From: Dethiobacter alkaliphilus
GTDB lineage: Bacteria > Bacillota > Dethiobacteria > DTU022 > UBA8154
Assembly (NCBI GenBank): GCA_016841605.1
Contig: JAENYV010000001.1
Span: forward strand, 231,540 to 295,539
Reading direction: 5' to 3'
DNA length: 64,000 nt
In this document: one piece after another, positions 9,201-42,613 of the stretch
Numbering within the stretch: position 1 is the stretch's first letter
How the letters are laid out: every line of letters begins with the position of its first letter
Made by a program: the position numbers and the translations under genes
Notes under the pieces: generated by a model
What the model saw: the letters and a program-made list of their open reading frames with translations, nothing else
The model's database searches: none
Told to the model about the DNA's origin: nothing

Positions 9201-12200
9201 GTCCCGGTGATGTGGCAATAGACAGCGCCGGCAATATTTTCATCGCAGATGAAGGCAACAATCGTATACGAGCGGTAGCAGCCAATACCGGTACGCAATA
9301 CGGGATTGACATGACAGCAGGGAACATATATACAGTGGCCGGGATTGGAACCAGGGGCTATAGCGGTGATGGCGGGCCGGCTGTCAGTGCCGAGCTGGGA
9401 CAGATTGAAGCTCTAGCAATTGACAGCACCGGCAATATTTATATAGTTGACGTGATAAATAATTGCCTTCGTAAGATCGATATAAATGGTATCATCAGCA
9501 CCGTAACCAGTATCAATAGTGCTCGTGGTTTGGCGATAGACGGCTCCGGGAATATCTACATGGGCGGTGCTCCAAACACCGGTATCTGTATGCTGGCTGC
9601 AGAAACAGGAATGAAGCATGGAATTTCCATGACGGCAGGTAATGTCTATACTGTTGCAGGTAACGGGACGGGTGGCTATTCCGGGGACGGCGGACCGGCC
9701 ACAAGTGCTAAGATATATGGTGACGGCATCATCGCCGTGGACTGTTCCGGCAACCTGTACATCTCCGATACTTATAACTATCGTGTTCGCAAGGTTGATC
9801 CGAGCGGCATTATTACTACTGTGGCCGGTAACGGCAGCCAGGGTTATTCCGGTGACAACGGACAGGCCACTGATGCGGAAATATACCCCATAGGCATAGC
9901 GGCGGACAGTGCCGGCAATCTCTTCATCAGCGGCAATAGGTGCGTTCGCAAAGTTGATGTCAGCGGTATCATTACTACGGTTGCCGGTGACGGGACCTCC
10001 GGTTACTCCGGTGACGGTGGACCGGCTACAAGTGCGCAAATGAAATCTCCCTGGGGCCTAGAAGTGGACGATGCAGGCGATCTATATATTACAGATATTA
10101 ATAATAATTGTGTTCGATATGTTAAGTTGGTTCCGGATGAGGACCCGGGCCTGGTCAGTCTGACCTTAAGCGGCAGCCCGGATTTGAACTACAATGGCAC
10201 CTCCATAGAATATGACCTGAGTGGTCTAAGCTTGACCGGCACCGGCGATTCGGAGGAGATCATTGATCTTGAAGGCCTGACGGTTACCTGGGCAGTCTGC
10301 TCCGGGCCGGCTACGGTCTCAGGTAATATTTTAACTATAACAGGCAGCGGTTCCATCAATGTCAGTGCTTCAATTTATGATGTCATAAGTAACGTTCTTA
10401 GCCTGACTGTTAATGATATTGGAGCTGACCCCCCGTCACTAACAGCTGATCCCGGCGATAAAATCATTGGTGAGGATGATGTGGAAATAACCTTTACCGA
10501 AGATTCAGCCTGGCGTGAGGCTATAAATACTGTAATCATTGACGATACGGTATTGGGAGATGGGGACTATTCGGCAGATAGCGCGGGTAAAATTATTATC
10601 AATGGAGATGTTTTCCAAAAAGCCGGGGATTATGTAGTAGTTATCAAGGCAACCGGCTATTCGGATGTCAGTGTGGTACAAACACTTGTTAGCTCGGAGA
10701 TTGTGCTTGAAATAACCGGGGATGGTGTAAACAATCATCTATCATATACCCTGGCCCAGCTTCAAGCAATGGAACAATACCGGCATTTGTACAGTACTAT
10801 TAACAAATGGCCCAGCAAAAAATGGTATGTAGGAGAAGGGGTTAAAGTAAAGGACCTTCTAACCCAGGCCGGGATGAAAGAAAATGCCACACTGATTAAA
10901 TTTACGGCTAGAGATGGCTATGCAATTACCTTTACTGTTCAAGAATTGCTGGATGACAAGCGCTATCTTTTCCCGAATTTTAAAGAACCCGGCGATGGGC
11001 ATATTCCTGGTTCTGCAGCAGATGCGGAAGAGGTAGAGACTATTCTGGCTTTGAATAGTGACAGCAGTAATGATTTTGATACCATGAACGACCATAACGC
11101 GTTACACTTGATTATAGGGCAGCGTGCAGTTGGTGAGCAGTTAAATGATGCCTATGTAAAATATGTAAATAAAATTGAAGTATTCACCACTGCCCTGTCA
11201 AAATGGGAAAGCCCGCAGGCGGTCCCGGATAGCGGAAATGTAGCTGTTGGAACGTTGGTAACATTGAGTACTTCCGATATGAATTGGGATAAGATTTATT
11301 ATACCCTGGACGGCAGTACCCCGACGATGAACAGTACCATGTACAATCCTATTGGTAAAGAATGGTGGTCATCAAGACAGGATGTTTTGAACACCATTAA
11401 TCATCCGATCGAAATTCAAAATAATACCACCATTAAAGCAATCGCCATTGGTCCGGGTAAGGAAAACAGCGATATTGCTATCTTTACGTATCAAATTGAT
11501 TCCGGCACTAACCCTCCGGCTCTTACCGCTGACACCACGGGCAACGAAATCGGGCAGATGGTGGAGATCACCTTTACCGATGATGCGGACTGGCGTGGGG
11601 CTATCACCGGGATAGAGGTGAACGGCTCAGACTTAAGCAGCGAGCAATATACTGTTAGCGAAGGTAATATAAACATTATTGCCGACGTATTCACTGCTGC
11701 AGGTGATTATACAATCGTGGTTACGGCTACCGGATACGAAGATGCGAGTGTTACTCAAACCATGGATGCATCAGCAGGGGTAGTTTTCACAGTTGATGGT
11801 GAAGTATCTCAGACCTATACAATGGCTGATTTAAAGGCGATGACAGCGACGACAGGCACATACGGATCAAAAACCTGTACTGGAGTAGCCCTAAACGACC
11901 TGCTGACAGGTTTGGGGATCACTGACGGCAATTGGACAGTGACCGTAAATGCAGCCGATGGATGGGAAACTGATCCGATTCCGGTCTCCGACATACAGGA
12001 ACCTACCAACAATTACCTGCTCACCTATGCGATAGACGGCAGTGACATCGTAGTGGACGGTGACAGCAATTTGACCCCGCTGCGCCTCTACTACGGCACA
12101 GCCGGCAATAGCGTATACAAGCATGTGGAATCAATCACGGTAAGTGAACCGGCAGGCTGTGAAGCGGTTTACACAGTCACACCGGTAAGTGATTCAGCTT

Positions 12201-13181: not shown

Positions 13182-13296
13182 GCCCGCAATAGAGTACCGG
13201 CAGCCGAAGGTGGAAAATGACGTCAATAGTTGCAGCTGAACCATGCCGGAAGCGGTCAATAGCTTCATAACATTGAAAATTATAAAGGAGGATATA

Positions 13297-14193
13297 ATGA
13301 TGAATTCAAGCTTTTTAAAACAAAAAGCATGGATAAGGTTGTTTGGGGTATTGTTGGTCCTGGTATTGGGGTTCGGCTTGTTTGCCGGCCAGGCCTTTGC
13401 CGACGAATCTGATCAGATTGTCGTTAAACTGGATGGAGTCGATGCCGTGACATATACCCGAGCTGATTTAACAAGTAGTTTTAGTTCATACCAACAGCTA
13501 TATTCCACGATAAATAATTGGCCCACCAAGAAGTTCTATGCGACGGACGGCGTCGTTCTTTCAGACATATTAGACGATTATTTGGATGAAATTGAAGCGG
13601 AAGAAGATATTGAAGACATATATCTTATTAGTGTAAAAGCTACGGACAACTTAACGAAAGTTTTTACGAGAGAAGAGCTGCTGGATGATGCACGTTATTA
13701 TTATCCCAACCTCATGAGTGGCGATCCCAGCGGTGCTTCGTCGAGGGATACGGTTATTGCCCTGGAAAATGCCCAGGGAACGAATTATGGGTCAATGAGT
13801 GAAGACGACGGACTGCGGCTCTTTATGGGACAGCGGGCGATCACGGAGCAGAATAATCCCTGGTTGGTGAAATATGTCTGTGAGATTAATCTCATTACTG
13901 ACGAGCCGGACCAATGGGATCAACCCACTTCATCACATGCATCGGGGACAGTGACGGCCGGGACGCAGGTAACGCTCAATCATACCAGCATCAACGGGGT
14001 GAAGATTTATTATACCACTGACAGCAGCACTCCGGATGTGAACAGTACCATGTATAATGTAAGCGCTACCTACTACCAGCCGGAGTTGAACGTACCAATT
14101 ACGATCAACCAAACCACTACGGTTAAGGCCATCGCCATCGGACCGGGTAAAACCGATAGCGCTGTAGCTACCTGGACCTATACGGTGGAGTAG
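13297..14193 (+). CDS. Secreted SUOX-like/chitobiase-C domain protein
   Basis: 298 residues from the ATG behind AAAGGAGG. Signal peptide about 1-33 (GQAFA). The main domain (about 36-210) is the SUOX-like type with YSTIN-x-WP, KKFYATDG, RYYYP and MGQRAITEQ, also found inside the 6254 protein and in the proteins at 32010 and 33482. It lacks the LAC-x-H cysteine motif. A chitobiase-C/Fn3-associated domain with YYTTDSSTP and IAIGPGK follows (about 215-298). Exported and probably a ligand-binding or structural surface protein; no enzyme activity is evident. It has its own consensus promoter, a long leader with a palindromic operator, and a flanking inverted repeat. Confidence 0.7.
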   Translation: MMNSSFLKQKAWIRLFGVLLVLVLGFGLFAGQAFADESDQIVVKLDGVDAVTYTRADLTSSFSSYQQLYSTINNWPTKKFYATDGVVLSDILDDYLDEIEAEEDIEDIYLISVKATDNLTKVFTREELLDDARYYYPNLMSGDPSGASSRDTVIALENAQGTNYGSMSEDDGLRLFMGQRAITEQNNPWLVKYVCEINLITDEPDQWDQPTSSHASGTVTAGTQVTLNHTSINGVKIYYTTDSSTPDVNSTMYNVSATYYQPELNVPITINQTTTVKAIAIGPGKTDSAVATWTYTVE

Positions 14194-14452: not shown

Positions 14453-15244
14453 ATGGAAGAAATTCGTATCAGTCCGATCGGAGTCGTAAAAACCGGATTG
14501 GGTGATATTAATTCTCTGCCCGGGGAAGGGGAAAAAGCGATCGTGGAACTAAAAGAAGAATACGTTCCCGCCCTGCAGCGTATCGAAGAAAATTCCCATA
14601 TCTGGATCATCTGCTGGTTTGACAGAGCCGACCGGAATTTATTACAAACTATGTCGCGTATTATGGAGCCTGAACCGCTTAAATTCGGAGTTTTTGCCTT
14701 GCGCTGTTCTTCCAGACCCAATCCTATTGCCCTTACCCTTGTCTCCCTGGATAGGGTCGAGGGGAATCTGCTTTATGTGACAGGACTGGATGCCTACGAG
14801 AATACGCCGGTACTGGATATTAAGCCTTATTACGAGCAGGACGGTATTTTTTCACCCCGGACCAGCTACGTGAAACCCAAGGACGAAGATGTCCGCCGCA
14901 GCTTTATGCACAAGCTGGCTTATCGCCACCACGGAGTTGAATCAGTTGCTCTGGAAATGGGACTGCGTATCTGCTTGCTGGCAGAAACTCATTTTGGACA
15001 CTTGTTTGATCCTGCTTTGTTAGTATCGGTAAAAGGTTCACGGGAGTTGGGCGATGTAATTCAGGGGATTACCAGGGCCAGGCCGGCCAATCCTCCTCGC
15101 TTTACCTTTTGCGAAGCTGAGGCAGATGAAGTTATTTTCACCAGGAATGAAAGGGTCCTGAAAATCAACATAAAAAAAAGGTACTCTGGGGAAGAGTTGC
15201 CGGGCTTAAGCGATGATGATATATTTTTCTTACAAATGAAGTAA
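14453..15244 (+). CDS. TrmO (TsaA)-FmdE fusion protein, copy 1
   Basis: 263 residues. Residues 1-135 form a TrmO/TsaA-type beta-barrel domain with NSHIWIICWF, RPNPI (88-92) and TPVLDIKPY (118-126), motifs of the SAM-dependent enzymes that N6-methylate t6A in tRNA. Residues about 150-245 resemble FmdE, the small protein encoded with molybdenum formylmethanofuran dehydrogenase: HHG (159-161), ALEMGLRICLLAETHFG and DVIQGITRARPANPPRF. The FmdE cysteines are missing here. TrmO proper lacks this second domain, so a tRNA role is doubtful; the protein may methylate a small molecule or chelate. Three other copies lie at 17543, 39922 and 56601, each beside transport genes. Its own promoter lies at 14385. 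Confidence 0.75.
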   Translation: MEEIRISPIGVVKTGLGDINSLPGEGEKAIVELKEEYVPALQRIEENSHIWIICWFDRADRNLLQTMSRIMEPEPLKFGVFALRCSSRPNPIALTLVSLDRVEGNLLYVTGLDAYENTPVLDIKPYYEQDGIFSPRTSYVKPKDEDVRRSFMHKLAYRHHGVESVALEMGLRICLLAETHFGHLFDPALLVSVKGSRELGDVIQGITRARPANPPRFTFCEAEADEVIFTRNERVLKINIKKRYSGEELPGLSDDDIFFLQMK

Positions 15245-16383: not shown

Positions 16384-17526
16384 TTGAAGATAAGATCATT
16401 TGAATTTAACCTGCGTGAGCTCTCCGGTGCTATGGGGGATATGGGGACCCTCTTACCTCTGGCAGTGGGCTATTTTGCCGTTTGCGGTCTTAATCCTGCC
16501 GGTTTACTGGTAATGATGGGTCTAGCCAATATCGCTACGGGACTGGTTTACAGACTCCCCATACCCATTGAGCCTATGAAAGTGCTGGCCGTGGTGGCTA
16601 TTGCCCAGCAGTGGTCTCCCTCTATGATCTACGCTTCGGGCTTTGCTATGGGAATTATCTGGTTGCTTTTCGCGGTTACGGGAATTATGAGTTGGGTGGC
16701 AAAATTTACTCCGCATCCCGTCATACGCGGTATTCAGGTGTCTCTGGGCATTTTGCTGGCCGTGGAGGCGCTGAAAATGCTTTCCACCTGGTGGATATTG
16801 GGTCTAGTCTCCGTTGCTATTGTCCTGGTCTTACGACAGAACCGCTATGCTCCCGGTGCAATTGTCCTAATTCTTCTGGGACTGGTGATCATGCATTATC
16901 AGGGCAAGTTCGCAGCTTTAAAAATGCTGGAACTGCAGCTGCCGGGGATCACTTCTTTTACTCCCGGACAGATTTGGCAAACCCTGTTGTTGGCAGGCTT
17001 TGCCCAGCTTCCCCTTACTGCTACCAATGCTGTTATTGCTACTTCATCCCTGATCAGCACTTACTGGCCTGACAGGTATGTCAGCGAAAGGAGGCTTTCC
17101 TTAAACATGGGCATCATGAACCTGGTATTTCCCTTTTTCGGTGGAATGCCTCTCTGCCATGGTGCCGGGGGGCTGGCGGGTCAGTATTATTTTGGGGCCA
17201 GGACGGGTGGCGCAAACATCATCGAAGGACTCATCGAAATTTCCCTGGGACTTTTTTTCGCCTCGTCCATTGCTTATATCTTTGCTTCTTTTCCCATGGC
17301 TGTTATCGGAGCGATGATGTTTTTAGTCGGCGTTGAGATGGTCAAATTTACGAGGGATATTACCGTTAAAACCGACCTGTTGCCCCTGGGGGCAACTGTT
17401 GCGGTTTCACTCTGGACAAACATGGCTTTCGGCTTCCTGGCCGGATTGGGCCTTTTTTATTTAATGAAGGCCATTCTGAAGAAAGATCAACAGTCATCAA
17501 ATGAAACAGTTAAAAATAAAAAATAA
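16384..17526 (+). CDS. MOT1/sulfate-permease-type membrane transporter
   Basis: 380 residues with about ten hydrophobic segments. It carries the paired motifs of the MOT1 molybdate/SulP-like family: GAMGDMGTLLPL near residue 15, LPIPIEPMKVLA near residue 58 and GGMPLCHGAGG in the second half. Plant and algal MOT1 proteins import molybdate, and bacterial members are annotated as putative sulfate or molybdate transporters; the substrate cannot be told from sequence. The start is a TTG about 12 bp after GGAGGGGGG; the nearer ATGs are in a frame that stops at once. The next gene, a TrmO-FmdE fusion, starts 17 bp later, which suggests co-transcription. Confidence 0.75.
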   Translation: MKIRSFEFNLRELSGAMGDMGTLLPLAVGYFAVCGLNPAGLLVMMGLANIATGLVYRLPIPIEPMKVLAVVAIAQQWSPSMIYASGFAMGIIWLLFAVTGIMSWVAKFTPHPVIRGIQVSLGILLAVEALKMLSTWWILGLVSVAIVLVLRQNRYAPGAIVLILLGLVIMHYQGKFAALKMLELQLPGITSFTPGQIWQTLLLAGFAQLPLTATNAVIATSSLISTYWPDRYVSERRLSLNMGIMNLVFPFFGGMPLCHGAGGLAGQYYFGARTGGANIIEGLIEISLGLFFASSIAYIFASFPMAVIGAMMFLVGVEMVKFTRDITVKTDLLPLGATVAVSLWTNMAFGFLAGLGLFYLMKAILKKDQQSSNETVKNKK

Positions 17527-17542
17527 ACACGAGGTGAATGGA

Positions 17543-18349
17543 ATGGAAGAGATTTGTCTTCGTCCGGTTGGAGTTGTGAAAAACAGGGTGGACGATATTT
17601 ACTCTATGCCCATGGAAGGAGAAAGAGCGGTCGTAGAGATAAAAGAAGAGTATATACCAGCCCTGCAGCGTATCGAAGAAAATTCTCATATCTGGATTAT
17701 CTGCTGGTTTGACAAGGGTGAACGGGATGTATTGCAAACTATGCCGCGTATTATCGAACCTGAGCCGGTAAAATTCGGGGTTTTTGCCGTGCGCTGTTTT
17801 AAACGGCCCAATCCTGTGTCCATGACCCTTGTTTCCCTGGAAAGAGTTGAGGGGAACCTGCTTTATGTGACAGGTCTGGACGCTGTTGAAGGAACGCCGG
17901 TCCTGGATATCAAGCCGTACTATGAGCAGGACAGTATTTTTTCGCCCCGGACATGCTATGTGAAACCCAAGGAGGAAGATGTCCGCCGCAGCCTTATGCA
18001 TAAGACGGCTTACCGTCACCACGGAGCGGATTCGGCTGCTCTGGAGATCGGATTGCGTATTTGCCTGGTGGCGGAAACCAATTTCGGGCACCTGCTTAAT
18101 CCTGCTTTATCCGTATCGGTGAAAGGTTCCCGGGAGTTGGCGGATGTAATCCAGGGGATCACCAGAGCTAAACTGGCCAACCCTCCCCGCTTTACTTTCT
18201 GCGAAGCCGGAACGGATGAAGTTATTTTTACCATGGATAAAAGGGTATTGAAATTCAGCGTTAAGAAAAAGTACTCTCCGCAAGAATTGCAAGGCTTAAA
18301 AGATAATGACATCTTTCAGATCACAAAAGAACCGGACGATTGGAATTAA
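17543..18349 (+). CDS. TrmO (TsaA)-FmdE fusion protein, copy 2
   Basis: 268 residues from the ATG after GAGGTG; the longer frame starting at 17501 overlaps the transporter and has no ribosome site. It closely resembles the copy at 14453: NSHIWIICWF, RPNPVS, TPVLDIKPYY, then the FmdE-like half with HHG, ALEIGLRICLVAETNFG and DVIQGITRAK. The FmdE cysteines are again absent. It lies between the MOT1-type transporter and the first FecCD importer group, so the product is probably tied to uptake of the ligand moved by one or both. Confidence 0.75.
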   Translation: MEEICLRPVGVVKNRVDDIYSMPMEGERAVVEIKEEYIPALQRIEENSHIWIICWFDKGERDVLQTMPRIIEPEPVKFGVFAVRCFKRPNPVSMTLVSLERVEGNLLYVTGLDAVEGTPVLDIKPYYEQDSIFSPRTCYVKPKEEDVRRSLMHKTAYRHHGADSAALEIGLRICLVAETNFGHLLNPALSVSVKGSRELADVIQGITRAKLANPPRFTFCEAGTDEVIFTMDKRVLKFSVKKKYSPQELQGLKDNDIFQITKEPDDWN

Positions 18350-18393: not shown

Positions 18394-19041
18394 TTGTATC
18401 AGAAGAGGAAAAGAAAGGCTGTTGTCATCCCCATGTTGATTCTCACAGTTGTTTTACTCTTGACATTGTCAATACCTGCAGCGTTTGCCGCCGGTGGCGG
18501 TGGCGGCGGCGGCGGAACCGGCGGGGGTAGTGGAGATCCGCTGGCACTGGTTTCCGTAACTCCGGAAGACGGGGCGGTTGATGTGGCTCAGCCGGTGGAA
18601 ATAAAGCTGGTCTTTAGCAAAAATGTGGTACATATGTCTGTACATGATGCCAACGCACAAAAATTTAACCTGACAGATGCGGATGGTGTCATGGTTCCTC
18701 TGGAAGTTGTCATGGCCGATGACCAAATTGAACCGGAAAAGCGTGAAGAGGTCATCTTGATACCGAAAGAAGAACTTACTCCTGATACGGTTTATACAAT
18801 TACTGTTGCTGCGGGTCTGGAGTCGAAAAGCAATACTGTTCTTGAGCAGGACCTGAAACTGACGTTCAGGACCGCTCCCGCAACGGCACCCGTATCCTCA
18901 GCTGATACCGACGCAGCACAGAATGAACCGGTAGAAACGCCGCCTTCTTCAGCGCAGCCTGCAACAAGTATTGCAGTGGTTTTGGTAGTAGTCGTCGCTG
19001 CAGTTGTGTTTATGTTAGCGAAAAGATTAAGAAGCAATTAA
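18394..19041 (+). CDS. Secreted Ig-like (Big_5) protein with C-terminal membrane anchor
   Basis: 215 residues, TTG start 7 bp after GGGAGG. Signal peptide (about 1-32), a glycine-rich linker, an SbsA/Big_5 Ig-like domain (about 48-160, beginning LVSVTPEDGAVDV with VFSKNV), a flexible Ala/Pro/Ser stretch, and one C-terminal transmembrane helix with a basic tail (AKRLRSN). It should sit on the outer face of the membrane. A paralog at 23134 takes the same place ahead of the second importer, so the pair probably act as surface partners of the binding proteins. No enzymatic motif. Confidence 0.65.
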   Translation: MYQKRKRKAVVIPMLILTVVLLLTLSIPAAFAAGGGGGGGGTGGGSGDPLALVSVTPEDGAVDVAQPVEIKLVFSKNVVHMSVHDANAQKFNLTDADGVMVPLEVVMADDQIEPEKREEVILIPKEELTPDTVYTITVAAGLESKSNTVLEQDLKLTFRTAPATAPVSSADTDAAQNEPVETPPSSAQPATSIAVVLVVVVAAVVFMLAKRLRSN

Positions 19042-19089: not shown

Positions 19090-20103
19090 GTGAGGATAAT
19101 CCGCAGGAGAGGTCTTTTTTTACTTTTAATATTAGTACCGTGTGCTTTTGTGATCTTTTCGCTGACTATCGGCCGTTATCCGTTGCCGCTGTCCGTTATC
19201 GCAAAAATAATGTGGTTTCGCCTGTGGGGTCTGGTCGGCCAATTTCCTGATACTTATGAAGTTGTTGTCTGGGATATCCGCTTTCCCAGGGCCCTGCTGG
19301 GCGTATTTGTCGGTGCCAGCCTGGCGGTCAGCGGGACGGCATTTCAGGGGTTGTTTCGCAACCCGCTTGTCAGTTCGGGAACACTCGGTGTCAGTGCAGG
19401 TGCCGGTTTCGGCGCCTCACTTGCCATCGTGCTTTTCAATAATACTGCTCTTATTTATATTTTTGCGTTTGCGTTCGGAGTTCTGTCTGTGGTGCTCAGT
19501 TATCTGATTGGCCGTTTTTACAGCGCTACGCCCACCATTACTCTGGTCCTCGGCGGTATCATTGTTTCTTCAGTGTTTTCAGCGCTCGTTTCCCTGGTCA
19601 AGTATGCTGCTGATCCCTATGAACAACTGCCTGCCATTGTTTTCTGGTTAATGGGCAGCCTGGCCTCTGCCCGCTACAGCGACCTGATGGTGGCAGGCAT
19701 TCCTATGGCCATAGGAATGGCGGGCTTGTTTGCCGTTCGCTGGCAGATTAACGTGCTCTCTATGGGAGACCGTGAAGCCCGCTCCCTGGGTATAAATACA
19801 TCGGTAGCAAAAGGACTGGTCCTGGCTTGCGCGACGATGGCCACGGCCGGTGCGGTCTGTGTCAGCGGTATTATCGGCTGGGTAGGCCTGGTTATTCCCC
19901 ATATAGGGCGCATGCTGATCGGCAATGACAATAAACTATTGGTTCCGGTCAGCATTTCCCTGGGTGCCTGTTTCCTGCTGCTGGTGGATATGCTAGCCCG
20001 GACCATTTCCGGTTCGGAAATACCTCTGAGTATTTTAACCGCTCTCCTGGGCGGCCCGTTTTTTGTTTACCTGTTAAAGAAAACCAAGGGAGGGGGTTGG
20101 TAA
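19090..20103 (+). CDS. FecCD/BtuC-type ABC importer permease (importer A)
   Basis: 337 residues with about ten transmembrane segments and the family signatures RFPRALLGVFVGASLAVSG, FRNPLVSSGTLGVSAGAGFG and GWVGLVIPHIGRMLIG. These permeases carry ferric siderophores, heme or cobalamin. The GTG at 19090 is the only upstream start in frame and lies inside an SD-like AGGTGAGG, so the exact start is uncertain. The ATPase gene follows 3 bp after the stop, and the binding protein follows that. Closest relative in the window is 23681-24700. Confidence 0.85.
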   Translation: MRIIRRRGLFLLLILVPCAFVIFSLTIGRYPLPLSVIAKIMWFRLWGLVGQFPDTYEVVVWDIRFPRALLGVFVGASLAVSGTAFQGLFRNPLVSSGTLGVSAGAGFGASLAIVLFNNTALIYIFAFAFGVLSVVLSYLIGRFYSATPTITLVLGGIIVSSVFSALVSLVKYAADPYEQLPAIVFWLMGSLASARYSDLMVAGIPMAIGMAGLFAVRWQINVLSMGDREARSLGINTSVAKGLVLACATMATAGAVCVSGIIGWVGLVIPHIGRMLIGNDNKLLVPVSISLGACFLLLVDMLARTISGSEIPLSILTALLGGPFFVYLLKKTKGGGW

Positions 20104-20106
20104 CCA

Positions 20107-20922
20107 GTGGCACTGTTGGAAGTCAAAAATTTGTTTTTTAGTTACAGTGATCAGCCCGTCCTGGAAGAAGTCAATTTCAAACTCGGTAAAGGGGAGATAT
20201 TTTGCCTCTTCGGCCCCAATGGCTGTGGGAAATCAACCCTGTTGGAATGCGTGCTGGGTACGCTGAAAATTTCCAGAGGCTATGTTTATCTTAACGGCAG
20301 GGACGTAAGAAACCTGCGCCCTGCCGAAGCAGCCCGTCAAATGGCTTACGTTCCGCAGCTCCACCAGAAAACGTTTCCTTATACGGTTAAAGAGATCGTT
20401 TTAATGGGCAGGGCCGCGTATACAGGGATGTTTACATCACCGTCGGAGGAAGATTACGCTGCGGTAGAAGAAGCCATGCAAAAAATCGGTATTCAGAGGC
20501 TGAGCGAGAAACCCTATACACAACTGAGCGGTGGGGAACTGCAGTTGGTGATGATAGCCCGGGCCCTGGCGCAGAAGACACCGGTTATGATCATGGATGA
20601 ACCCACGGCCCACCTGGATTTTCGTCATGAATTGATTATTCTGGAGACTGTGGTGCAACTGGTCAGAGAAACCGGCCTCTCTATTCTGATGGCCACGCAT
20701 TTCCCCAATCACGCCTTTTTTTTTGATAATAACGATATCCCCACTACGGTGGCCCTGATGAACAGCCGCAGGTTTGCGGCTGTTGGCCGGCCGGAAGAGG
20801 TCCTCTCCGAGCAGAGTATGCAGCGGACATTTAATGTTGAAGCCCGTATGGTATCCTACTATCGGGAAGGCAAGAAGGAATTCCGGCAAATCGTAGCTGT
20901 CAGGACCAACGGTTTACGTTGA
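20107..20922 (+). CDS. FecE/BtuD-type ABC importer ATPase (importer A)
   Basis: 271 residues, GTG start. Walker A GPNGCGKST (about 36-44), signature LSGGELQLVMIARAL, Walker B VMIMDEPTAHLD and switch His in MATHFPNHAF are all intact. It energises the permease encoded just upstream. As in importer B, the segment after the switch His is extended (FFFDNNDIPTT) compared with importers C and D, which separates A/B from C/D as two subfamilies. Confidence 0.88.
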   Translation: MALLEVKNLFFSYSDQPVLEEVNFKLGKGEIFCLFGPNGCGKSTLLECVLGTLKISRGYVYLNGRDVRNLRPAEAARQMAYVPQLHQKTFPYTVKEIVLMGRAAYTGMFTSPSEEDYAAVEEAMQKIGIQRLSEKPYTQLSGGELQLVMIARALAQKTPVMIMDEPTAHLDFRHELIILETVVQLVRETGLSILMATHFPNHAFFFDNNDIPTTVALMNSRRFAAVGRPEEVLSEQSMQRTFNVEARMVSYYREGKKEFRQIVAVRTNGLR

Positions 20923-20966
20923 TTAAGAAAGAGATTTAGAGATTTAGAAATTTGGAGGATTGAACA

Positions 20967-22064
20967 ATGAAAGCAAGAGCATCCGGTCTTTGCCTGATAC
21001 TAATCTTTCTTTTGCTTATCTTGCCGGTCTTTCCAGGCTGTACCGGAAAGACAATTGATTCCGAAGCGGTCCAATCTGCAGAAAACCAAACAATACAGGT
21101 TACAGATTCCTTCGGGCGTACTGTTGAGGTACCGGCCGGCGTGGAGCGAGTTGCCACCCTGTATGCCTTTACCGGACATGTGACGACGCTGCTTGGTAAA
21201 GGTGAGCTGATTGTTGCCGTAAACCGCGGCCTTAAGCGGGACATTCTCTTTAACCGCATTAACCCGGTGATTGCCGCTGCAGTTATGCCTGTTGCTGCAG
21301 ATAAAGTCAATATAGAAGAACTGCTGAGAGCCGAACCTGACCTGGTTTTTGTACAGGGCAGCGTGTTTCGGGATGAAAAGGAAAGGGAAAAGCTGGATAA
21401 AACCAAAATTCCTTATCTGGCGGTGGAATTTAACGGTATTGAAGAGCAGATCAGCACTATTGAAGCGATCGGAAAGGCTTTGGGTGCCTCTGATACCGCT
21501 TCCCGTTACCTGGATTACTACCGGGGGGTTCTGGATCTGGTCCAAAAGCGGGTCGCAGATATCCCTGAAAGCGAAAAAATTCGTATTTACCATTCCATCA
21601 ATGAGGCGACCCGCACCTATGGCCGGGATAATCTGGCCGCGGACTGGACAACTATGGCAGGGGTAATTAACGTATCCCTGGACCAGGAACTCCGCCTCCT
21701 GAACAATAATTATTTTGCCGGTCTGGAACAGATCCTGCTCTGGGACCCCGAACTTATCCTGGTCAACGAGGACGGAGTCGCGGACTATATTTTGACCAAC
21801 ATACAGTGGTCACCCTTACAGGCGGTAAAAAACGACCGGATCCATCAGATGCCTGTGGGCGTTTCCCGCTGGGGGCATCCGGGTTCACTGGAAACACCTC
21901 TGGGTATTCTTTGGGCCTCCAAGTTGTTTTATCCGGAACTCTTTGCGGATATTGATATATCAGCGGAAACACGTAAAATATACCGGGATTTTTTTGGCTA
22001 TGACCTGAGCGATGAGGAACTGGAAAGCATGTTGAGCGGCAGAGGTATGCGGGAGGCAAAATAG
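20967..22064 (+). CDS. Metal-chelate-type substrate-binding lipoprotein (importer A)
   Basis: 365 residues. Lipoprotein signal with Cys in LPVFPGC. The rest is a BtuF/FhuD-type binding protein with a long backbone helix: VTDSFGRTVEVP at the start of the mature part, a C-lobe with GVSRWGHPGSLETPLG, and LFYPELF near the end. It should sit outside the membrane and pass its ligand to the permease at 19090. Ligand unknown; the family binds siderophores, heme and corrinoids. The RWGHP motif is shared with importer B and, in altered form, with the radical SAM fusion at 43769. Confidence 0.82.
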   Translation: MKARASGLCLILIFLLLILPVFPGCTGKTIDSEAVQSAENQTIQVTDSFGRTVEVPAGVERVATLYAFTGHVTTLLGKGELIVAVNRGLKRDILFNRINPVIAAAVMPVAADKVNIEELLRAEPDLVFVQGSVFRDEKEREKLDKTKIPYLAVEFNGIEEQISTIEAIGKALGASDTASRYLDYYRGVLDLVQKRVADIPESEKIRIYHSINEATRTYGRDNLAADWTTMAGVINVSLDQELRLLNNNYFAGLEQILLWDPELILVNEDGVADYILTNIQWSPLQAVKNDRIHQMPVGVSRWGHPGSLETPLGILWASKLFYPELFADIDISAETRKIYRDFFGYDLSDEELESMLSGRGMREAK

Positions 22065-22105: not shown

Positions 22106-22984
22106 GTGAAACTGCTTATATGTATTGACGATACCGATAATCTCGAATCCAGGGGAACCGGAGCGGTAGCTGAAGGAATAAAAGACCTGATTACGGAAAA
22201 CGGGTTCGGCAGATGCATCTTTACGACAAGGCATCAGCTGCTCCTGCATAAAGATATTCCCTATACTTCCCATAACAGCTCCATGTGTTTTGAATGCGAT
22301 ATTAAGGATGATATCTACAGTGCCGTGGAAAAAGCGGCCACAGAGTACTTGCGCAGGGAAAGCGCCGAAGGCTCCGATCCGGGGATTTGTATCGCTAAAA
22401 GAAGAGAAGAATTAAATGAAGCTGTTCTGGTTGAATTTGGCTTAAGGGCTAAAAGACAGCTTTTAACAAAGGAAGATGCCTACAGCATAGCGGCACACGC
22501 GGATGTTTATTTAAAGGAGGTGGGTGGGACAGGCCAGGGAGTTATCGGAGCGTTGGCCGGTGTGGGGCTGCGGCTTGACGGCAATGACGGTGAAGTTAAA
22601 GGCGGAGTTGATCAATTCCGTAAAGGGGAGACCTATACGGTGGAGCAATTGCTTTCCAACCGCGCCATAGAAGCGGTTTATGACGGCAAGTTGAATTCCC
22701 TGGCCGGCGATCAGGCGGTCTTTATTACATGGAAGGCAAAACCGGTCATAGTCAATAAAAGACCGGTAATGGTGGTTGCCTGGGATGAAGAGGCACAAAT
22801 TTGGAGAAGCATGTACAAAAAGGAAATGCGTGCCTTTGGTGATGAGTGTACATACAAAAAGGCGTGTCAGGCTTTTACATTTGATGTGGAGGAGGAATTA
22901 GTAGATGATGATGAACGCTCGTGTCTAAACTGCCGTTACAGGAGATGGACGGATAAATCCTTTTCCTGCGGTTATATAGGATGA
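22106..22984 (+). CDS. TiaS-like protein (tRNA-Ile2 agmatinylcytidine synthetase family)
   Basis: 292 residues from the GTG 7 bp after AAAGAGGG; the TTG at 22100 is too close. The N-terminal CIDDTDNLESRGTG matches the ATP-handling IDDTD motif of archaeal TiaS, which joins agmatine to C34 of tRNA-Ile2. The C-terminus has a short zinc-ribbon-like cysteine cluster (SCLNCRYRR...SCGY). It is shorter than archaeal TiaS, which is usually over 400 residues, and bacteria normally use TilS instead, so a tRNA function is unlikely. It lies 41 bp after a binding-protein gene and before importer B, pointing to work on the imported ligand. The call is by motif only. Confidence 0.6.
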   Translation: MKLLICIDDTDNLESRGTGAVAEGIKDLITENGFGRCIFTTRHQLLLHKDIPYTSHNSSMCFECDIKDDIYSAVEKAATEYLRRESAEGSDPGICIAKRREELNEAVLVEFGLRAKRQLLTKEDAYSIAAHADVYLKEVGGTGQGVIGALAGVGLRLDGNDGEVKGGVDQFRKGETYTVEQLLSNRAIEAVYDGKLNSLAGDQAVFITWKAKPVIVNKRPVMVVAWDEEAQIWRSMYKKEMRAFGDECTYKKACQAFTFDVEEELVDDDERSCLNCRYRRWTDKSFSCGYIG

Positions 22985-23097: not shown

Positions 23098-23133
23098 TAA
23101 AGGTTTTATTATCATAGAAAAGGGATGAATCAG

Positions 23134-23691
23134 ATGAAAAGAATAATTACATTTGCAGTTTTGTTCATGGTTATATGCTTAGGATATGCTGTTACCGGCT
23201 GGGCCGCGGGGGAAGGTTCGGGAGGAGGTGCAGGCAGTCCGCTTGCTATTGTTTCATCTACGGTCAGTAACGGGGAAGCGGGCGTCAATTTAGACCGGGA
23301 GATTAAATTTGTTTTCAGTAAAAATATTGCTAATATCAGTGTCGCAGAAAACAATCATAACTGTTTTTCCATGACGGATTCAAGCGGCAATATGGTTCCC
23401 ATTGAGGTTATTACCTTTGACGATCAGCTTGAAAGCGAGAAGAAGAATGATCTTATCGTTAAGCCTGAAGCTCTGCTGGAGGGGGAGCAATATACCATTA
23501 CTATCAGTCCCGATTTGCAGGCAAAAAACGGTGATAAATTAGGCGAGGAGGTTACATACACTTTTTCTACGATCGGATATGTTTCAGCAGACGCCGGCAG
23601 TTCATCGCAATTATGGATTTATCTTGTTGTCATAGCCGTAATTATTGTTGCAGCATTTATCTTGATCAAAGGTAAGAAGAATGCTCAATAA
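23134..23691 (+). CDS. Secreted Ig-like (Big_5) protein with C-terminal membrane anchor
   Basis: 185 residues from the second ATG, 9 bp after AAAAGGG. Paralog of the protein at 18394: signal peptide (ending GWAA), short Gly/Ser linker, SbsA-like Big_5 domain (LAIVSSTVSNGEAGVNLD, VFSKNI, PIEVITFDDQLESEK) and one C-terminal helix with basic tail KGKKNAQ. Its end overlaps the permease gene by 11 bp, so it is the first gene of the importer B operon. Likely an extracytoplasmic accessory of that importer. Confidence 0.68.
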   Translation: MKRIITFAVLFMVICLGYAVTGWAAGEGSGGGAGSPLAIVSSTVSNGEAGVNLDREIKFVFSKNIANISVAENNHNCFSMTDSSGNMVPIEVITFDDQLESEKKNDLIVKPEALLEGEQYTITISPDLQAKNGDKLGEEVTYTFSTIGYVSADAGSSSQLWIYLVVIAVIIVAAFILIKGKKNAQ

Positions 23692-24700
23692 AAGATATTT
23701 AAAGGTACTTACTTCGGCATGTATTATTTTGCCCGTTGTTTTTATTCTCATTTCATTATTTATCGGCAGGTATGATTTGGGAATTAAAGATATTTTTACT
23801 ATACTGGTCAACGGACAAAACTGGAGTTTAGATCCCGAACATGCCATAGAATATTCCCTGGTTTATGAAATCAGGCTGCCAAGGGCTTTACTGGCCTTTA
23901 TTGTGGGAGGGGCGTTGTCGATCAGCGGCGGCGCCTTGCAGGGAATGTTCAGAAATCCGCTGGTTGATTCCGGTATGCTGGGGGTCAGCGCAGGTGCAGG
24001 CTTTGGAGCTTGCCTGGGCATCATTTTCTTCCATAATAATTTTATGATCTATACCCTGGCTTTTCTGTTTGGTATAATTGCCGTTCTTTTAAGCTTTATT
24101 ATTGGGAAAATATATGATTCCGCGCCGACGGTAACTCTGGTTCTGGGCGGGGTAGTCATATCGGCCATTTTCAGCGCTTTGATATCTTTTATGAAATATG
24201 TTGCAGACCCGTTGGAGAAACTCCCGACCATTACCTTTTGGCTTATGGGCAGTTTAAGCAGGGCCAATTTTCAGGATACGGCTATTGCCCTCATTCCTAT
24301 TGCGGTTGGTGCCCTCGGTATTATGCTTGTTCGCTGGCAGATCAATGTGCTTTCCCTGGGTGATAGAGAGGCGGGAACATTAGGTGTTAATACAGGTTTA
24401 TGCCGGGCCATCGTAATTGTCTGCACATCGATCGCTACTGCGGGTGCTGTTTGTGTGAGCGGGACAATCGGCTGGGTCGGTTTAATTATTCCCCACATTG
24501 TAAGAATGATCGTCGGCAACGATAACCGTGTTTTATTACCGGTCTGTTTGTCTGTGGGAGGCTGTTTCCTCTTAATTGTCGACCTGATTGCCCGTAGCAT
24601 TGTCAGCACGGAGATCCCCCTCGGCGTTCTGACGGCGATGGTGGGAGGACCGTTTTTCATTGTGATCTTGAAAAGAACGAAGGGAGGCGGAAGCTGGTAA
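23681..24700 (+). CDS. FecCD/BtuC-type ABC importer permease (importer B)
   Basis: 339 residues, about ten transmembrane segments, with RLPRALLAFIVGGALSISGG, FRNPLVDSGMLGVSAGAGFG and GWVGLIIPHIVRMIVGNDNR. Overlaps the upstream anchor-protein gene by 11 bp and shares TAATG with the ATPase gene downstream, so the operon is translationally coupled. Very similar in order and motifs to importer A, which points to duplication of the whole operon. Confidence 0.88.
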   Translation: MLNKRYLKVLTSACIILPVVFILISLFIGRYDLGIKDIFTILVNGQNWSLDPEHAIEYSLVYEIRLPRALLAFIVGGALSISGGALQGMFRNPLVDSGMLGVSAGAGFGACLGIIFFHNNFMIYTLAFLFGIIAVLLSFIIGKIYDSAPTVTLVLGGVVISAIFSALISFMKYVADPLEKLPTITFWLMGSLSRANFQDTAIALIPIAVGALGIMLVRWQINVLSLGDREAGTLGVNTGLCRAIVIVCTSIATAGAVCVSGTIGWVGLIIPHIVRMIVGNDNRVLLPVCLSVGGCFLLIVDLIARSIVSTEIPLGVLTAMVGGPFFIVILKRTKGGGSW

Positions 24701-25527
24701 TGACTGTCCTGCAGGTTGAAAACCTGTCCTTTAGTTATCAGGAAAAAAAAGTTTTAAATGGAGTAAGTTTTTCTGTCGAACAAGGTGAAATTTTTTGTGT
24801 TTTTGGTTCCAACGGGTGCGGCAAAACAACGATGCTGGACTGTATACTCGGCCTGAACAAGTCCGAAGGAGGAAACGTATTCATTGATGGTGATAATCTG
24901 CTGGAGATGTCTCCGGCCCGCAAGGCGCAAAAGATTGCCTATGTATCCCAGAAAAGCGACCGGACTTTTCCCTATTCAGTGTTGGAAATCGTTTTAATGG
25001 GCAGGACGGCCTATTCCGGGATGTTTTCATCTCCGGGCCAGGATGATGTGGAAGTTGCCGAGAAGGCCCTTAGCAGTGTAGGGATGTCCAATTTTAGAGA
25101 CCGGGTTTATACAAAATTGAGCGGTGGAGAAGCACAACTGGTCAAAATTGCCCGGGCTATTGCCCAGGATACCAAATTGATTATCTTTGATGAACCGACC
25201 TCCCACCTTGATTTCCGGCATGAACTGAATGTCATAAAATACATTGCCAAAATAATCCGGGATAAGAATATCTCCGTTGTGATGGCTACCCATTTCCCTA
25301 ACCATGCCTATTTTTTCGAAAGCTACGGATTGCCGACCCGGGTAGCATTAATGGAAAACGGGATGTTCGGTGCGGTAGGGCTGCCTTCAGAGGTTTTGAA
25401 CCGGGAGAATATGGCCGATATCTTTAAAATCAGAACCAAGAATTTTCGAGACTGTGAAGGGGACAGGGTTCTTAATTTTGTTGTGCCCATAGATTTTTGT
25501 GCAGGAGGGGAATGGCAGAGTGAATAA
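24700..25527 (+). CDS. FecE/BtuD-type ABC importer ATPase (importer B)
   Basis: 275 residues with Walker A GSNGCGKTT, signature LSGGEAQLVKIARAI, Walker B IIFDEPTSHLD and switch MATHFPNHAY. The extension after the switch His (FFESYGLPTR) matches importer A. Start ATG overlaps the permease stop; the binding-protein gene begins within its last codons. Confidence 0.88.
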   Translation: MTVLQVENLSFSYQEKKVLNGVSFSVEQGEIFCVFGSNGCGKTTMLDCILGLNKSEGGNVFIDGDNLLEMSPARKAQKIAYVSQKSDRTFPYSVLEIVLMGRTAYSGMFSSPGQDDVEVAEKALSSVGMSNFRDRVYTKLSGGEAQLVKIARAIAQDTKLIIFDEPTSHLDFRHELNVIKYIAKIIRDKNISVVMATHFPNHAYFFESYGLPTRVALMENGMFGAVGLPSEVLNRENMADIFKIRTKNFRDCEGDRVLNFVVPIDFCAGGEWQSE

Positions 25528-26629
25528 AAAAATTTTTGTGCTGTTTGCAGTATTTTTTTTCTTAGCATCTTTTTGGGCCGGTTGTGCAAAGAAAACTGCG
25601 GCAGACTTAACACCTGAAGAAGGTTATATCATTGTTACCGACTACCTGGGGAAAAAAGTGAAAATAAAAGAAAACCCGGACTATATCGGCAGTATCTTTG
25701 CTGTTGCCAGCCATGTACTGGCTATGTATGGAGATGTGGAGAAGATTGTGGCCATTTCTGAGGGTAACACGAGGGATTATCTATTTTGTGAAATATATCC
25801 GCAAATATTAAGAGCCAGAATAGTCAAAGGCAGCAATACGCTTAATATTGAAGAGCTGGCGAAACAGCCCAGACCGGAAGTGTTGATTTTGAATCCTGAA
25901 GTAACGCTCGATGAAAGCATGATGAAACAACTGGATAAGTTCGGGATACCTATTGTGACAATAGCTTATGATAACGTGGAGCAGCAGCAGCAGATTATGG
26001 AGTTGCTGGGGACAATTACCGGCAGAGAGAAAGAAGCTGCCGCTTATAACGAGTACTACAGAAATATTGTTGAGCTGGTCACTTCCCGCACGGCAGAGAT
26101 TCCTGAAGGGGAAAGAAAAACAGTATATCATGCTATCAACGAATTGTTAAGAACAGACCAGGCTGATACACTGTCGGAAGATTGGCTTAACCTGGTTGGT
26201 GTTGAGAATGTAGCTTTTTCAGGTGAAGAGAGAGAATCCATCGGTACTAATAAGAGCTATCTATCGCTGGAAGAATTATTACAAAGAAATCCGGAGTACA
26301 TGATCATAAACGGCGGAGATGTGCTCGACTATATTGAGGCCAGCCCGCAGCTCCACAATCTCAAGGCTTACCGGGAAGGCAATATTTATCTGTTGCCTTT
26401 GGGAGTTTCCAGATGGGGCCATCCTTATTCTATAGAAACACCGCTGGCTATCCTCTGGACGGCCAAAACAATTTATCCTGAATTATTTACGGATGTGGAT
26501 ATGGAAAAGGAAACAAAGGATTTCTATCTAAACTTTTTCGATTACGAACTCTCAGATAGTCAAGTTGCCAAAATATTGTCCGGCAGGGGGTATAAGGATA
26601 TAAAGGGTTCAGGTGAATCCGGTATCTGA
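25520..26629 (+). CDS. Metal-chelate-type substrate-binding lipoprotein (importer B)
   Basis: 369 residues from the GTG behind GGAGGGG, overlapping the ATPase gene by 8 bp. Lipobox Cys in SFWAGC. BtuF/FhuD-type fold with VTDYLGKKVKIKE at the start, NIEELAKQPRPEVLILN, and the C-lobe motif GVSRWGHPYSIETPLAILW followed by IYPELF. Closely parallel to the importer A protein. Ligand unknown. Confidence 0.82.
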   Translation: MNKKIFVLFAVFFFLASFWAGCAKKTAADLTPEEGYIIVTDYLGKKVKIKENPDYIGSIFAVASHVLAMYGDVEKIVAISEGNTRDYLFCEIYPQILRARIVKGSNTLNIEELAKQPRPEVLILNPEVTLDESMMKQLDKFGIPIVTIAYDNVEQQQQIMELLGTITGREKEAAAYNEYYRNIVELVTSRTAEIPEGERKTVYHAINELLRTDQADTLSEDWLNLVGVENVAFSGEERESIGTNKSYLSLEELLQRNPEYMIINGGDVLDYIEASPQLHNLKAYREGNIYLLPLGVSRWGHPYSIETPLAILWTAKTIYPELFTDVDMEKETKDFYLNFFDYELSDSQVAKILSGRGYKDIKGSGESGI

Positions 26630-31894: not shown

Positions 31895-32009
31895 TGAAAC
31901 CTGGCGTATTCTTCCCCAAAGGGGGCATGCCCATAAATCTAAAAAACGAAAACATCTGATGTGTCCGTAGGGAAAGTAAGAGTTAATTAAGAAAGGAGTG
32001 TTTATTATT

Positions 32010-33203
32010 ATGGTTATGAAAAACGAGTTTAGAATTTCTAAAACTATGGTGGGTTTGATACTGGGACTGATCATGGGATTTTGCGTGCTGGTAATGCCCG
32101 GGATAGCCGGCGCATATCAGATTGAAGTATCAGGTGATGGGGTAAATAGCCCGACGACTTTGTATCAGGTTGACTTGGAGACCATGGACCAGGAGGAGCA
32201 GATATTCAGTACGAATAACACCTGGCCTACTAAAAAGTGGTATGTGGGTGAGGGCCCCACTCTGATGGATATTTTAGACGCGGCCGGCGGACTTACGCAA
32301 GATGCCACGCTGATCAAATTTACCGCGACGGACAATTTTAATATTACCTTGACCAAGGAAGAACTGTTGGATGCTACCCGCTATTACTATCCCGGGTTGA
32401 AGGAGAATCATCCATATTATGGCGAGATTGCAGGTTCAACGGATGATGCTGAAGAAGTGGTCCCAATTATAGCCCTGCAAAGTGCGAATAGTGATGATTT
32501 TGAGGATATGACTGCTTCCCAAGCGCCGCATTTGTTGTTTGGACAGCGCTATGTAACCGAACAGACTAATAACTTGTTTGCTAAATGGATAAATAAAATT
32601 GAAGTGTTCACCACTACTCCTCAAACATGGGCTGATCCGACAGCATCAATATCTAGTGGAACAATCATTACATCAGGAACAGAAGTAACGCTAAGTGCTA
32701 CTTATAATGATGCCGATAAGGTTTATTATACTACCGACGGCAGCACTCCTTCTATCGCAAGTGATATGTATAACTGGATTGCCTACCGCTGGTGGACTTC
32801 CCGATCGGATGTCTTGGATGAAATCAATCATCCCATTGAAATCACAGGGACTGTCGGGCAATCCAAAACAATAAAAGCATTAGTTATTGGTCCGGGTAAG
32901 TATGACAGTAGCATTGCAACTTTTACCTACACTATTGGTAACGCGTCGCCGACTCTGACGGCTGATACCACAAATAACTCCGTCGGGCAGGCCATCGATA
33001 TTACCTTTACTGATGATTCTAGCTGGCGCAGCGCCATTACCGATGTAACTGTAAATGAGAGTTCTATTGCAGGCCATTATACGGTTACGGCAGGCAACCT
33101 CCACATTGACAACACCGTATTCACCAGTGCCGATACCTATTCAGTTGTGGTTACTGCCACCAACTATACAAATGCCGAAGTAAATCAAGTTATAGTCCCT
33201 TAA
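32010..33203 (+). CDS. Secreted SUOX-like/chitobiase-C/HID protein
   Basis: 397 residues from the ATG 11 bp after AAGGAG. Signal peptide (PGIAGA). SUOX-like domain (about 30-210) with NNTWPTKKWYVGEGPTL, RYYYP, FGQRYVTEQ; chitobiase-C-like domain (YYTTDGSTP, IGPGK) about 215-315; HID/DUF1533 domain (TADTTNNSVGQAIDITF) to the end. HID domains were first described in streptococcal Shr, where they bind hemoglobin. The family Cys of molybdopterin enzymes is replaced here, so a catalytic role is unlikely. It has a promoter with an overlapping palindromic operator, which makes it a likely member of the same regulon as importers B and C. Confidence 0.7.
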   Translation: MVMKNEFRISKTMVGLILGLIMGFCVLVMPGIAGAYQIEVSGDGVNSPTTLYQVDLETMDQEEQIFSTNNTWPTKKWYVGEGPTLMDILDAAGGLTQDATLIKFTATDNFNITLTKEELLDATRYYYPGLKENHPYYGEIAGSTDDAEEVVPIIALQSANSDDFEDMTASQAPHLLFGQRYVTEQTNNLFAKWINKIEVFTTTPQTWADPTASISSGTIITSGTEVTLSATYNDADKVYYTTDGSTPSIASDMYNWIAYRWWTSRSDVLDEINHPIEITGTVGQSKTIKALVIGPGKYDSSIATFTYTIGNASPTLTADTTNNSVGQAIDITFTDDSSWRSAITDVTVNESSIAGHYTVTAGNLHIDNTVFTSADTYSVVVTATNYTNAEVNQVIVP

Positions 33204-33481: not shown

Positions 33482-34600
33482 TTGCTAATTATGGTTAAGA
33501 AAAACGGGTTTAGAAAGTTGTTAATGATAAGTTTTATACTTATCCTGATCATGGGATTTGGCGGGCTGATAATGCCCGGAACAGCCGGCGCTCAATCTGA
33601 TTCGGTGACCATAACCGGTAATGGGTTAGTATCGACGACCCCGACTACTTTAACCCGTGCTCAATTGGAGGACATGCCCCAGGTGCAGGCCTGTTATAGT
33701 TCGATTAACACCTGGCCTACTAAGAAGTGGTATGTTGGTGTGGGTGTCCCCCTGACGGATATTTTAACCGCGGCCGGCGGAATTAAGCCCGAGGCCAAGA
33801 TGATTAAAGTTACGGCAACTGACGGTTATGGGATGTGGTTTACCGTGCAAGAACTGCTGAATGAGCCCCGCTATTACTATCCCGGGCTGAAAGATAATGA
33901 TGCATATCTTGGCAATATACCGGGTTCACCGGATGGGGCAATAGAGGTGGCCCCTATGCTAGCCTTGCGAAGTGCCAATAGTGATAATTTTGACTATATG
34001 AATACTTCCGAATCGTTACATTTGTTGTTAGGGCAGCGGTGGGTCACCGAACAAACCAACCACAAGTTTGTCAAATATGCAACAACCATTGAAGTGACCA
34101 CCGATACTCCGGCACAATGGGCTGCTCCAACAGCATCGGTACTTAGCGGAACCGTTGCAGAGGGAACCGAGGTAGCGTTAAGTAATCAGTTTAATGATGA
34201 CGATAAAATTTATTATACAACTGACGGCAGCGACCCCACTGTTCAGAGTCTTATATATAACTGGATCGCCGCGCGCTGGTGGGCTTCCAGGGCGGATGAT
34301 TTGGCTGACGTAAACCACCCGATTGTTGTAAACCGGTCCATGACTATCAAAGCGAAAACCATCGGCTTCGGCAGGACGGATAGCGATATAGTTACTTATG
34401 ACTACCAAGTTATGATCAAAGGAGATATCGATAATAATGAAGCAGTAAACATTTTGGATTTAGTAAAAGCGATTAACTTCATTAAAGGCACAGCCACACC
34501 TACTGCTGAACAAATGTTTGCTGCAGACATGGACGATAATGGAACAATCAATATCTTAGATCTGGTAAGGATAATCAACAAAATTCGCGGACAGGGTTAG
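33482..34600 (+). CDS. Secreted SUOX-like protein with dockerin domain
   Basis: 372 residues from TTG 33482 (8 bp from the ribosome site; ATG 33491 is possible). Signal peptide (PGTAGA), SUOX-like domain with NTWPTKKWYVGVGVPL, RYYYP, LGQRWVTEQ, a chitobiase-C-like domain (YYTTDGSDP), and at the C-terminus a type I dockerin: two calcium-binding F-hand repeats with DIDNNEAVNILDLVKAI and DMDDNGTINILDLVRII. Dockerins bind cohesins, and cohesins are encoded immediately downstream (34643) and at 2-946. It is therefore expected to attach non-covalently to a scaffold on the cell surface. Confidence 0.8.
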   Translation: MLIMVKKNGFRKLLMISFILILIMGFGGLIMPGTAGAQSDSVTITGNGLVSTTPTTLTRAQLEDMPQVQACYSSINTWPTKKWYVGVGVPLTDILTAAGGIKPEAKMIKVTATDGYGMWFTVQELLNEPRYYYPGLKDNDAYLGNIPGSPDGAIEVAPMLALRSANSDNFDYMNTSESLHLLLGQRWVTEQTNHKFVKYATTIEVTTDTPAQWAAPTASVLSGTVAEGTEVALSNQFNDDDKIYYTTDGSDPTVQSLIYNWIAARWWASRADDLADVNHPIVVNRSMTIKAKTIGFGRTDSDIVTYDYQVMIKGDIDNNEAVNILDLVKAINFIKGTATPTAEQMFAADMDDNGTINILDLVRIINKIRGQG

Positions 34601-39864: not shown

Positions 39865-39921
39865 GTGTAACAAAGCAAGCAATTTTTCGCTGTAGTGTTA
39901 AGAAGAGAAGGGGGAGATTTG

Positions 39922-40731
39922 TTGGAAGAAATTCGTATCAGCCCGATCGGAGCAGTGAAAACCCTGGTGGACGATATTTACGACATGCCTATGGAAGGTG
40001 AAAAGGCGATTGTAGAAATTAAAGATAAGTACATTCCTGCCCTGCAGCGTATCGAAGAAAATTCGCATATCTGGATTATCTGCTGGTTTGACAGGGCTGA
40101 CCGGGACATATTACAAGTTATGCCCCGTATAATTGAACCTGAGCCGTTGGAATTCGGAGTTTTTGCCATACGCTGTTTTTCCAGGCCCAATCCGATTGCC
40201 ATTACCCTTGTTTCCCTGGAAAGAGTAGAGGGTAATCTGCTATATGTCAACGGCCTGGACGCGGTAGAGGGAACACCGGTGCTTGATATCAAGTCTTACT
40301 ACGAACATGATAGTGTTTTTTCACCCAGGACTAGCTACATAAAACCCAAGGACGAGTATGTCCGCCGCAGCCTTATGTACAAGCTGGCTTATCGCCACCA
40401 CGGAAAACGATCAGCTGCCCTGGAAATCGGACTGCGCATCTGCTTGACTGCAGAGACTTATCTCGGTCAGCTGCATAATCCTGCTCTATGCGTATCAGTC
40501 AAAGGCTCCCGGGAACTGGCCGATGTTATCCAGGGTATTACCAGGGCAAGACCGGCTAATCCTCCGCGCTTTTCCTTTTGCGATGCCGGCGGCGATGATG
40601 TCATTTTCACCAAGGAGGGGAAGATACTGAGATTTAGCGTTTTAAAAAGGTTTTCTAAGGAAGAGTTAAAGGACTTAAGTGATGATGAAATATTTTTAAT
40701 GACAGAGGGTTTTGTTGATAGAGGAGAATAA
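39922..40731 (+). CDS. TrmO (TsaA)-FmdE fusion protein, copy 3
   Basis: 269 residues. The TTG start aligns with the ATG of copies 1 and 2 and lies 6 bp after GGGGGAG; the longer frame from 39895 lacks support. TrmO part with NSHIWIICWF, RPNPIA and TPVLDIK; FmdE-like part with RHHGKRSAALEIGLRICLTAE and DVIQGITRARPANPPRF, cysteines absent. It is the first gene of the group containing importer C and the radical SAM fusion, with 41 bp to the permease gene, and it lies behind the double operator. This is the best evidence that these fusions act with a FecCD importer. Confidence 0.78.
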   Translation: MEEIRISPIGAVKTLVDDIYDMPMEGEKAIVEIKDKYIPALQRIEENSHIWIICWFDRADRDILQVMPRIIEPEPLEFGVFAIRCFSRPNPIAITLVSLERVEGNLLYVNGLDAVEGTPVLDIKSYYEHDSVFSPRTSYIKPKDEYVRRSLMYKLAYRHHGKRSAALEIGLRICLTAETYLGQLHNPALCVSVKGSRELADVIQGITRARPANPPRFSFCDAGGDDVIFTKEGKILRFSVLKRFSKEELKDLSDDEIFLMTEGFVDRGE

Positions 40732-40772
40732 GGGAGAAAGAGCCGTACATTCAACAACGGGAGTGAAAGTAA

Positions 40773-41807: not shown

Positions 41808-41810
41808 AAA

Positions 41811-42608: not shown

Positions 42609-42613
42609 GAGAT

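Follow-up and report, generated by a model that had tools for sequence, protein, structure and literature searches.

A TiaS-type kinase domain encoded beside FecCD-type importers in Dethiobacter alkaliphilus and the link of its family to the tungsten/molybdenum-cofactor regulon

TiaS, its relatives, and tungsten-cofactor regulation

The archaeal enzyme TiaS (tRNA(Ile2) 2-agmatinylcytidine synthetase; PDB 3amt, 3amu, 4rvz) activates the C2 oxygen of cytosine by phosphorylation, and similar groups are present in pterins and nucleobases. Within TiaS, the kinase domain (TCKD) is an RNA-acting domain, the FLD is the agmatine-binding domain, and Thr18 is autophosphorylated. Other TCKD-containing proteins are the short TiaS-like protein of Pyrococcus furiosus (PDB 3u02) and methanogenesis marker protein 11 (NCBIfam TIGR03280). 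To our knowledge, the latter has no known function, and a literature search with the phrase "methanogenesis marker protein 11" returned nothing. Apart from TupABC, WtpABC, and the shared molybdopterin pathway, the ways in which anaerobes gather scarce tungsten and handle its cofactor are, as far as we know, poorly understood; no link of TiaS homologues to tungsten was found in the literature. For the Moco/Tuco riboswitch (RF01055), Regulski et al. (PMC2408646) report that copies lacking P3 correspond near-perfectly with the use of the tungsten cofactor.

The TiaS-like gene and its kinase domain

The window, by which the whole analyzed stretch of 64,000 nucleotides of D. alkaliphilus is meant, carries on its forward strand a gene for a TiaS-like protein of 292 amino acids (22106..22984), as judged from its ORF, from profile matches in NCBIfam and PDB, from its predicted fold, and from a comparison of starts. 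The CIDDTDN motif and the cysteine cluster that the initial annotation had read from this ORF are both present. The mechanical ORF start is a TTG at 22100; the GTG at 22106 is preferred, as it has a AGGAAAGAGG-type ribosome site at normal spacing and agrees with the starts of the homologues. Counted from this GTG, the DDTD motif occupies residues 8-11 and a Thr is located at residue 18 (22127..22159, forward strand), which equals the TiaS numbering in an ungapped alignment. DDTD and Thr18 are invariant in the aligned members of the family, and a PG motif and a glycine-rich IGALA motif are also shared with TiaS.

The TCKD-like domain (22109..22573, forward strand) was recognized by NCBIfam and PDB profile matches and by its predicted fold. 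The NCBIfam TiaS model NF040849 matched residues 4-161 of the window protein at 2.4e-08 (33 bits, short of the equivalog cut-off of 600 bits) and was also matched by 26 of 27 relatives; the relationship thus extends well beyond the short motif. Pfam TiaS_TCKD was matched in 15 of the 27 relatives, the window protein itself staying under the threshold. A profile of these 27 relatives found PDB 3u02 at 3.3e-08 and the TiaS chains in PDB at 1.6e-05, across the whole TCKD. The predicted structure of the window protein (mean pLDDT 83) matched TiaS with a Z of 21.5 and an rmsd of 1.9 over 154 residues at 20 % identity, while the best unrelated row had a Z of 7.9. Rows to PII, HPPK, and amidases were weak (Z under 8) and were taken to reflect common fold arrangements. 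By sequence profiles and predicted fold, the N-terminal part of ~160 residues is truly homologous to the kinase domain of TiaS.

The P. furiosus protein 3u02 (fold Z 18.9) is likewise short and TCKD-containing but is archaeal and matched over the TCKD only. The best NCBIfam match of the window protein is methanogenesis marker protein 11 (7e-12, 45.1 bits against a cut-off of 255.8, over residues 4-160), and all 27 members match TIGR03280 over the TCKD-like part. The matching part is C-terminal in the TIGR03280 profile (134-283 of 292) but N-terminal in the window protein. With the same domain, the TiaS-like family provides a lead for methanogenesis marker 11.

The common ground with TiaS is the TCKD only. 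In a profile search for FLD (PF08489), which does match archaeal controls, no copy was detected in the whole genome from which the window derives, and none was detected among the 27 relatives. The OB-fold and zinc-ribbon region of TiaS was not found by Pfam in the C-terminal region, which instead holds a different, Cys4 module with a poorly predicted structure. TilS was present above cut-off in 25/25 carrier genomes (those with a strong TiaS-like match), so that a replacement of TilS in AUA decoding was not borne out. As the FLD is missing and TilS is present in all 25 carriers, the protein is not TiaS by membership, and full TiaS orthology was rejected. Of the TiaS-like identity proposed in the initial annotation, the homology of the TCKD-type domain stands, whereas the protein is not TiaS itself. 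Phosphotransfer chemistry may be common to both proteins. The family also differs from TiaS in occurring in bacterial hosts that have TilS and in the context of an importer operon and the Moco/Tuco riboswitch.

These findings bear on the reading that the family modifies tRNA or another RNA under control of the tungsten/molybdenum cofactor, with the Cys4 module as the RNA binder. It would agree with the role of the TCKD in TiaS and with the TrmO-family genes nearby; the absence of the FLD, the presence of TilS in every carrier, and the kept linkage to importers and a cofactor riboswitch described below make it the least probable reading considered here. Two TrmO-family proteins with C-terminal extensions (14453..15244 and 17501..18349, forward strand; PF01980, TIGR00104) are encoded upstream. 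The TrmO-FmdE protein that had been proposed for this locus was recovered in part: TrmO genes do adjoin, and an FmdE domain was not detected by Pfam in the TrmO proteins of the window, whereas a C-terminal FmdE domain of a TrmO-family protein scored over cut-off in relative L005.

The Cys4 module

The C-terminal cysteine cluster (C...SCLNCRYRRWTDKSFSC; 22835..22981, forward strand) is a separate module with the pattern C...SCxNCRYRRWTxxSFxC, for which Pfam has no family. It is fused in the window protein and its seven closest relatives, and in most others it is encoded by its own small ORF just downstream. Fused or separate, it is found with 27 of 39 relatives and in the window protein; Syntrophomonas-type members are without it. 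AlphaFold gave a poor model of the module alone (pLDDT 53). At locus L071, an FmdE protein with a dksA-type zinc finger and a MobB-like protein (4981-5586 and 9224-9709) are located near a TiaS-like paralogue and a Cys4 gene.

Linkage to importers

The initial annotation had placed the gene between two metal-chelate importers, and the two importer sets are indeed present at 19090-22064 and 23681-26629, each comprising FecCD permease, ABC ATPase, and Peripla_BP_2 protein, and all on the forward strand. The upstream set consists of a Big_5-type surface protein (18394..19041, similar to that at 23125-23691 and clustering with Big_5 proteins), a FecCD permease (19090..20103; PF01032), an ABC ATPase (20107..20922), and a Peripla_BP_2 substrate-binding lipoprotein (20967..22064; PF01497), the gene of which ends ~40 bases before the TiaS-like gene. 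Some 140 bases after the end of the latter follow the Big_5 surface protein of the second set (23125..23691; PF13205), a FecCD permease (23681..24700, by similarity to FecCD), an ABC ATPase (24700..25527), and a Peripla_BP_2 protein (25499..26629; PF01497).

The 39 relatives come from Bacillota, Spirochaetes, Kiritimatiellales, Desulfuromonas/Geobacter-type bacteria, and one gammaproteobacterial MAG. In the phylum of the window, the family was matched in 28 of 398 genomes (~7 %), and two genomes of the same genus are without the gene. Among loci with at least 4 kb upstream, 28/44 have importer parts (FecCD, PBP, or Big_5) no farther than 6 kb away on the same strand; for control windows of carrier genomes the count is 0/40 (p=2.8e-11). 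Members at L004 and L006 are located away from any importer. In the Desulfuromonas-type locus L013, the neighbors are two ABC ATPase domains and a CbiQ-like protein, that is, an ECF-type importer, and the locus also contains ExbB/ExbD and a TonB receptor. Genes of LarB- and LarC-type for the nickel-pincer cofactor lie upstream of this importer and the TiaS-like gene (L013:3929-5910). As the gene keeps company with unrelated importer types, the protein is suggested to act on what the importer brings in and not on the machine. The recruitment of a TiaS-type domain to a bacterial importer locus, probably to act on a substrate other than tRNA, is supported.

The loci L062, L064, L067, L069, L071, and L134 carry a further TiaS-like paralogue, in which IDDS or IDDF replaces DDTD. 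It is either a tandem neighbor of the DDTD form (L064 has three tandem copies) or located beside MobB (L071, L134), and it is possibly a noncatalytic subunit. The whole family could also be regulatory or structural, with the ferredoxin-like TCKD fold sensing ATP or a molybdenum/tungsten species and tuning the importer or cofactor assembly without catalysis. The tight linkage to importers, the IDDS paralogues in tandem with DDTD forms, and the weak fold rows to PII-type ATP-binding regulators are in line with such a subunit. The PII rows, however, are at the common-fold level, the aligned members show no variation at the TiaS site residues, Thr18 among them, and at three loci (L016, L021, L080) the gene is not beside a FecCD-type importer; this reading is therefore considered unlikely.

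Association with molybdenum and tungsten

Of the 36 loci scanned, 13 have RF01055 upstream of the TiaS-like gene and on its strand (L001, L003, L014, L016, L017, L021, L032, L034, L038, L064, L074, L075, and L080), against 0.32 expected from the density of this RNA in 25 carrier genomes (p=5e-18); G061 and G189 come in addition. At L016, L021, and L080, the riboswitch stands ahead of the TiaS-like gene alone, and in G061 (L071) ahead of a Cys4 gene and a TiaS-like paralogue. P3 is missing from each of the 14 aligned copies, while longer riboswitches elsewhere in the phylum have it. The operons of the relatives thus resemble the described Moco/Tuco regulon in carrying the riboswitch in its P3-lacking form, but the excerpted text of PMC2408646 mentions no TCKD-fold gene. 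Because short copies are common in these genomes, the missing P3 favors tungsten over molybdenum to a modest degree.

The window copy differs in having no detectable riboswitch: RF01055 was absent from the window at the gathering score and also at E<=5. Three copies are present elsewhere in the same genome. One of these (L132, G000:C30:328266-328402) is a P3-containing Moco riboswitch ~75 kb downstream of the TiaS-like gene, before large secreted proteins. The regulon link of the window copy therefore rests on its homologues.

Genes for molybdenum or tungsten metabolism (TupA/B, MoeA, MoaA, MoaC, AOR, molybdopterin oxidoreductase, and MOT1, with queries of the same locus excluded) were found near 14/59 loci versus 1/40 controls (p=0.004). 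Tungsten-type AOR-family proteins are present in 25/25 carrier versus 35/55 noncarrier genomes (p=2e-4, an optimistic value as the genomes are related), with nine matches in the genome of the window. MoaA, found in 23 of 25 carriers versus 39 of 55 noncarriers, is weakly informative (p=0.045, optimistic for the same reason). In the window, a MOT1-type molybdate transporter (16384..17526, forward strand; PF16983) is encoded upstream of the first importer set, and a ModA at 50547-51365 scored above the NCBIfam cut-off. By its homologues, the family belongs to the tungsten/molybdenum-cofactor regulon, and the link is regulatory and positional.

Importers of the FecCD/Peripla_BP_2 type usually carry chelates, which, with the ECF and TonB genes and LarB/LarC nearby in Desulfuromonas-type loci, would fit an accessory for the uptake of another metal or cofactor, such as iron, nickel, or a cobalamin-like chelate, the molybdenum/tungsten association being secondary. 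This is quite improbable in view of the 13 of 36 loci with RF01055 and the enrichment of molybdenum/tungsten genes nearby; other riboswitches at the loci (cobalamin, c-di-GMP) are located away from the operon start.

Proposed role in tungsten or molybdenum metabolism

The explanation that we favor, at somewhat better than even chances, is that the protein uses ATP to transfer a phosphate group or to activate a substrate, either in the acquisition of tungsten/molybdenum or in the metabolism of the cofactor. Its homology and the regulon of its family are observations, whereas reaction and substrate are inferred. The stand-alone TCKD-fold enzyme would be co-produced with an ABC importer of the FecCD type, or with an ECF-type importer in some diderms, and would bind ATP-Mg at the DDTD/Thr18 site. 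A small ligand may then be phosphorylated on a carbonyl or hydroxyl group and thereby activated or trapped. Candidates for this ligand are an imported tungsten/molybdenum ligand and a pterin or nucleotide moiety of the cofactor. The product could enter cofactor assembly, in which the Cys4 protein would be a partner; the Cys4 module, fused here and a separate partner elsewhere, would bind zinc and serve in substrate or partner binding. The initial annotation had considered amidation or phosphorylation of a ligand group using ATP. As the domain that binds agmatine in TiaS is missing, nothing speaks for amine transfer in particular, and phosphotransfer is the more conservative guess.

A narrower form of this proposal, that the TCKD-fold family is dedicated to tungsten and acts, together with the Cys4 partner and FecCD/ECF importers, by phosphorylation or conjugation of either a tungsten ligand that has been imported or the tungsten-pterin cofactor, is advanced tentatively, its chances being somewhat short of even. 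If true, it would fill in a step that is missing from tungsten biology, and the TiaS kinase domain would have a use outside RNA. The conserved, riboswitch-linked operon of FecCD importer, TiaS-type kinase domain, and Cys4 partner is a testable candidate for such a step, and the TiaS-like family suggests that an RNA-modifying domain family can serve in small-molecule metabolism.

Other features of the window

Several further genes of the window touch on the same subjects. Those for a CobW/HypB-like protein, an ABC ATPase, and the ModA-type molybdate-binding protein are consecutive at 49006-51365. Repeated secreted proteins at 13243-14193, 31998-33203, and 33482-34600 have a common N-terminal domain (WPTKK...DIL...GQR) that by eye is like the sulfite-oxidase-type molybdopterin-binding fold; no such Pfam match was obtained for 13243-14193. 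SAM methyltransferases are encoded at 47453 and 62259. Two more FecCD/ABC/PBP importers, at 39895-43747 and 56550-62080, each have a TrmO-family gene before and a radical SAM gene after them, which brings the importers of this type in the window to four; the TiaS-like gene accompanies one only.
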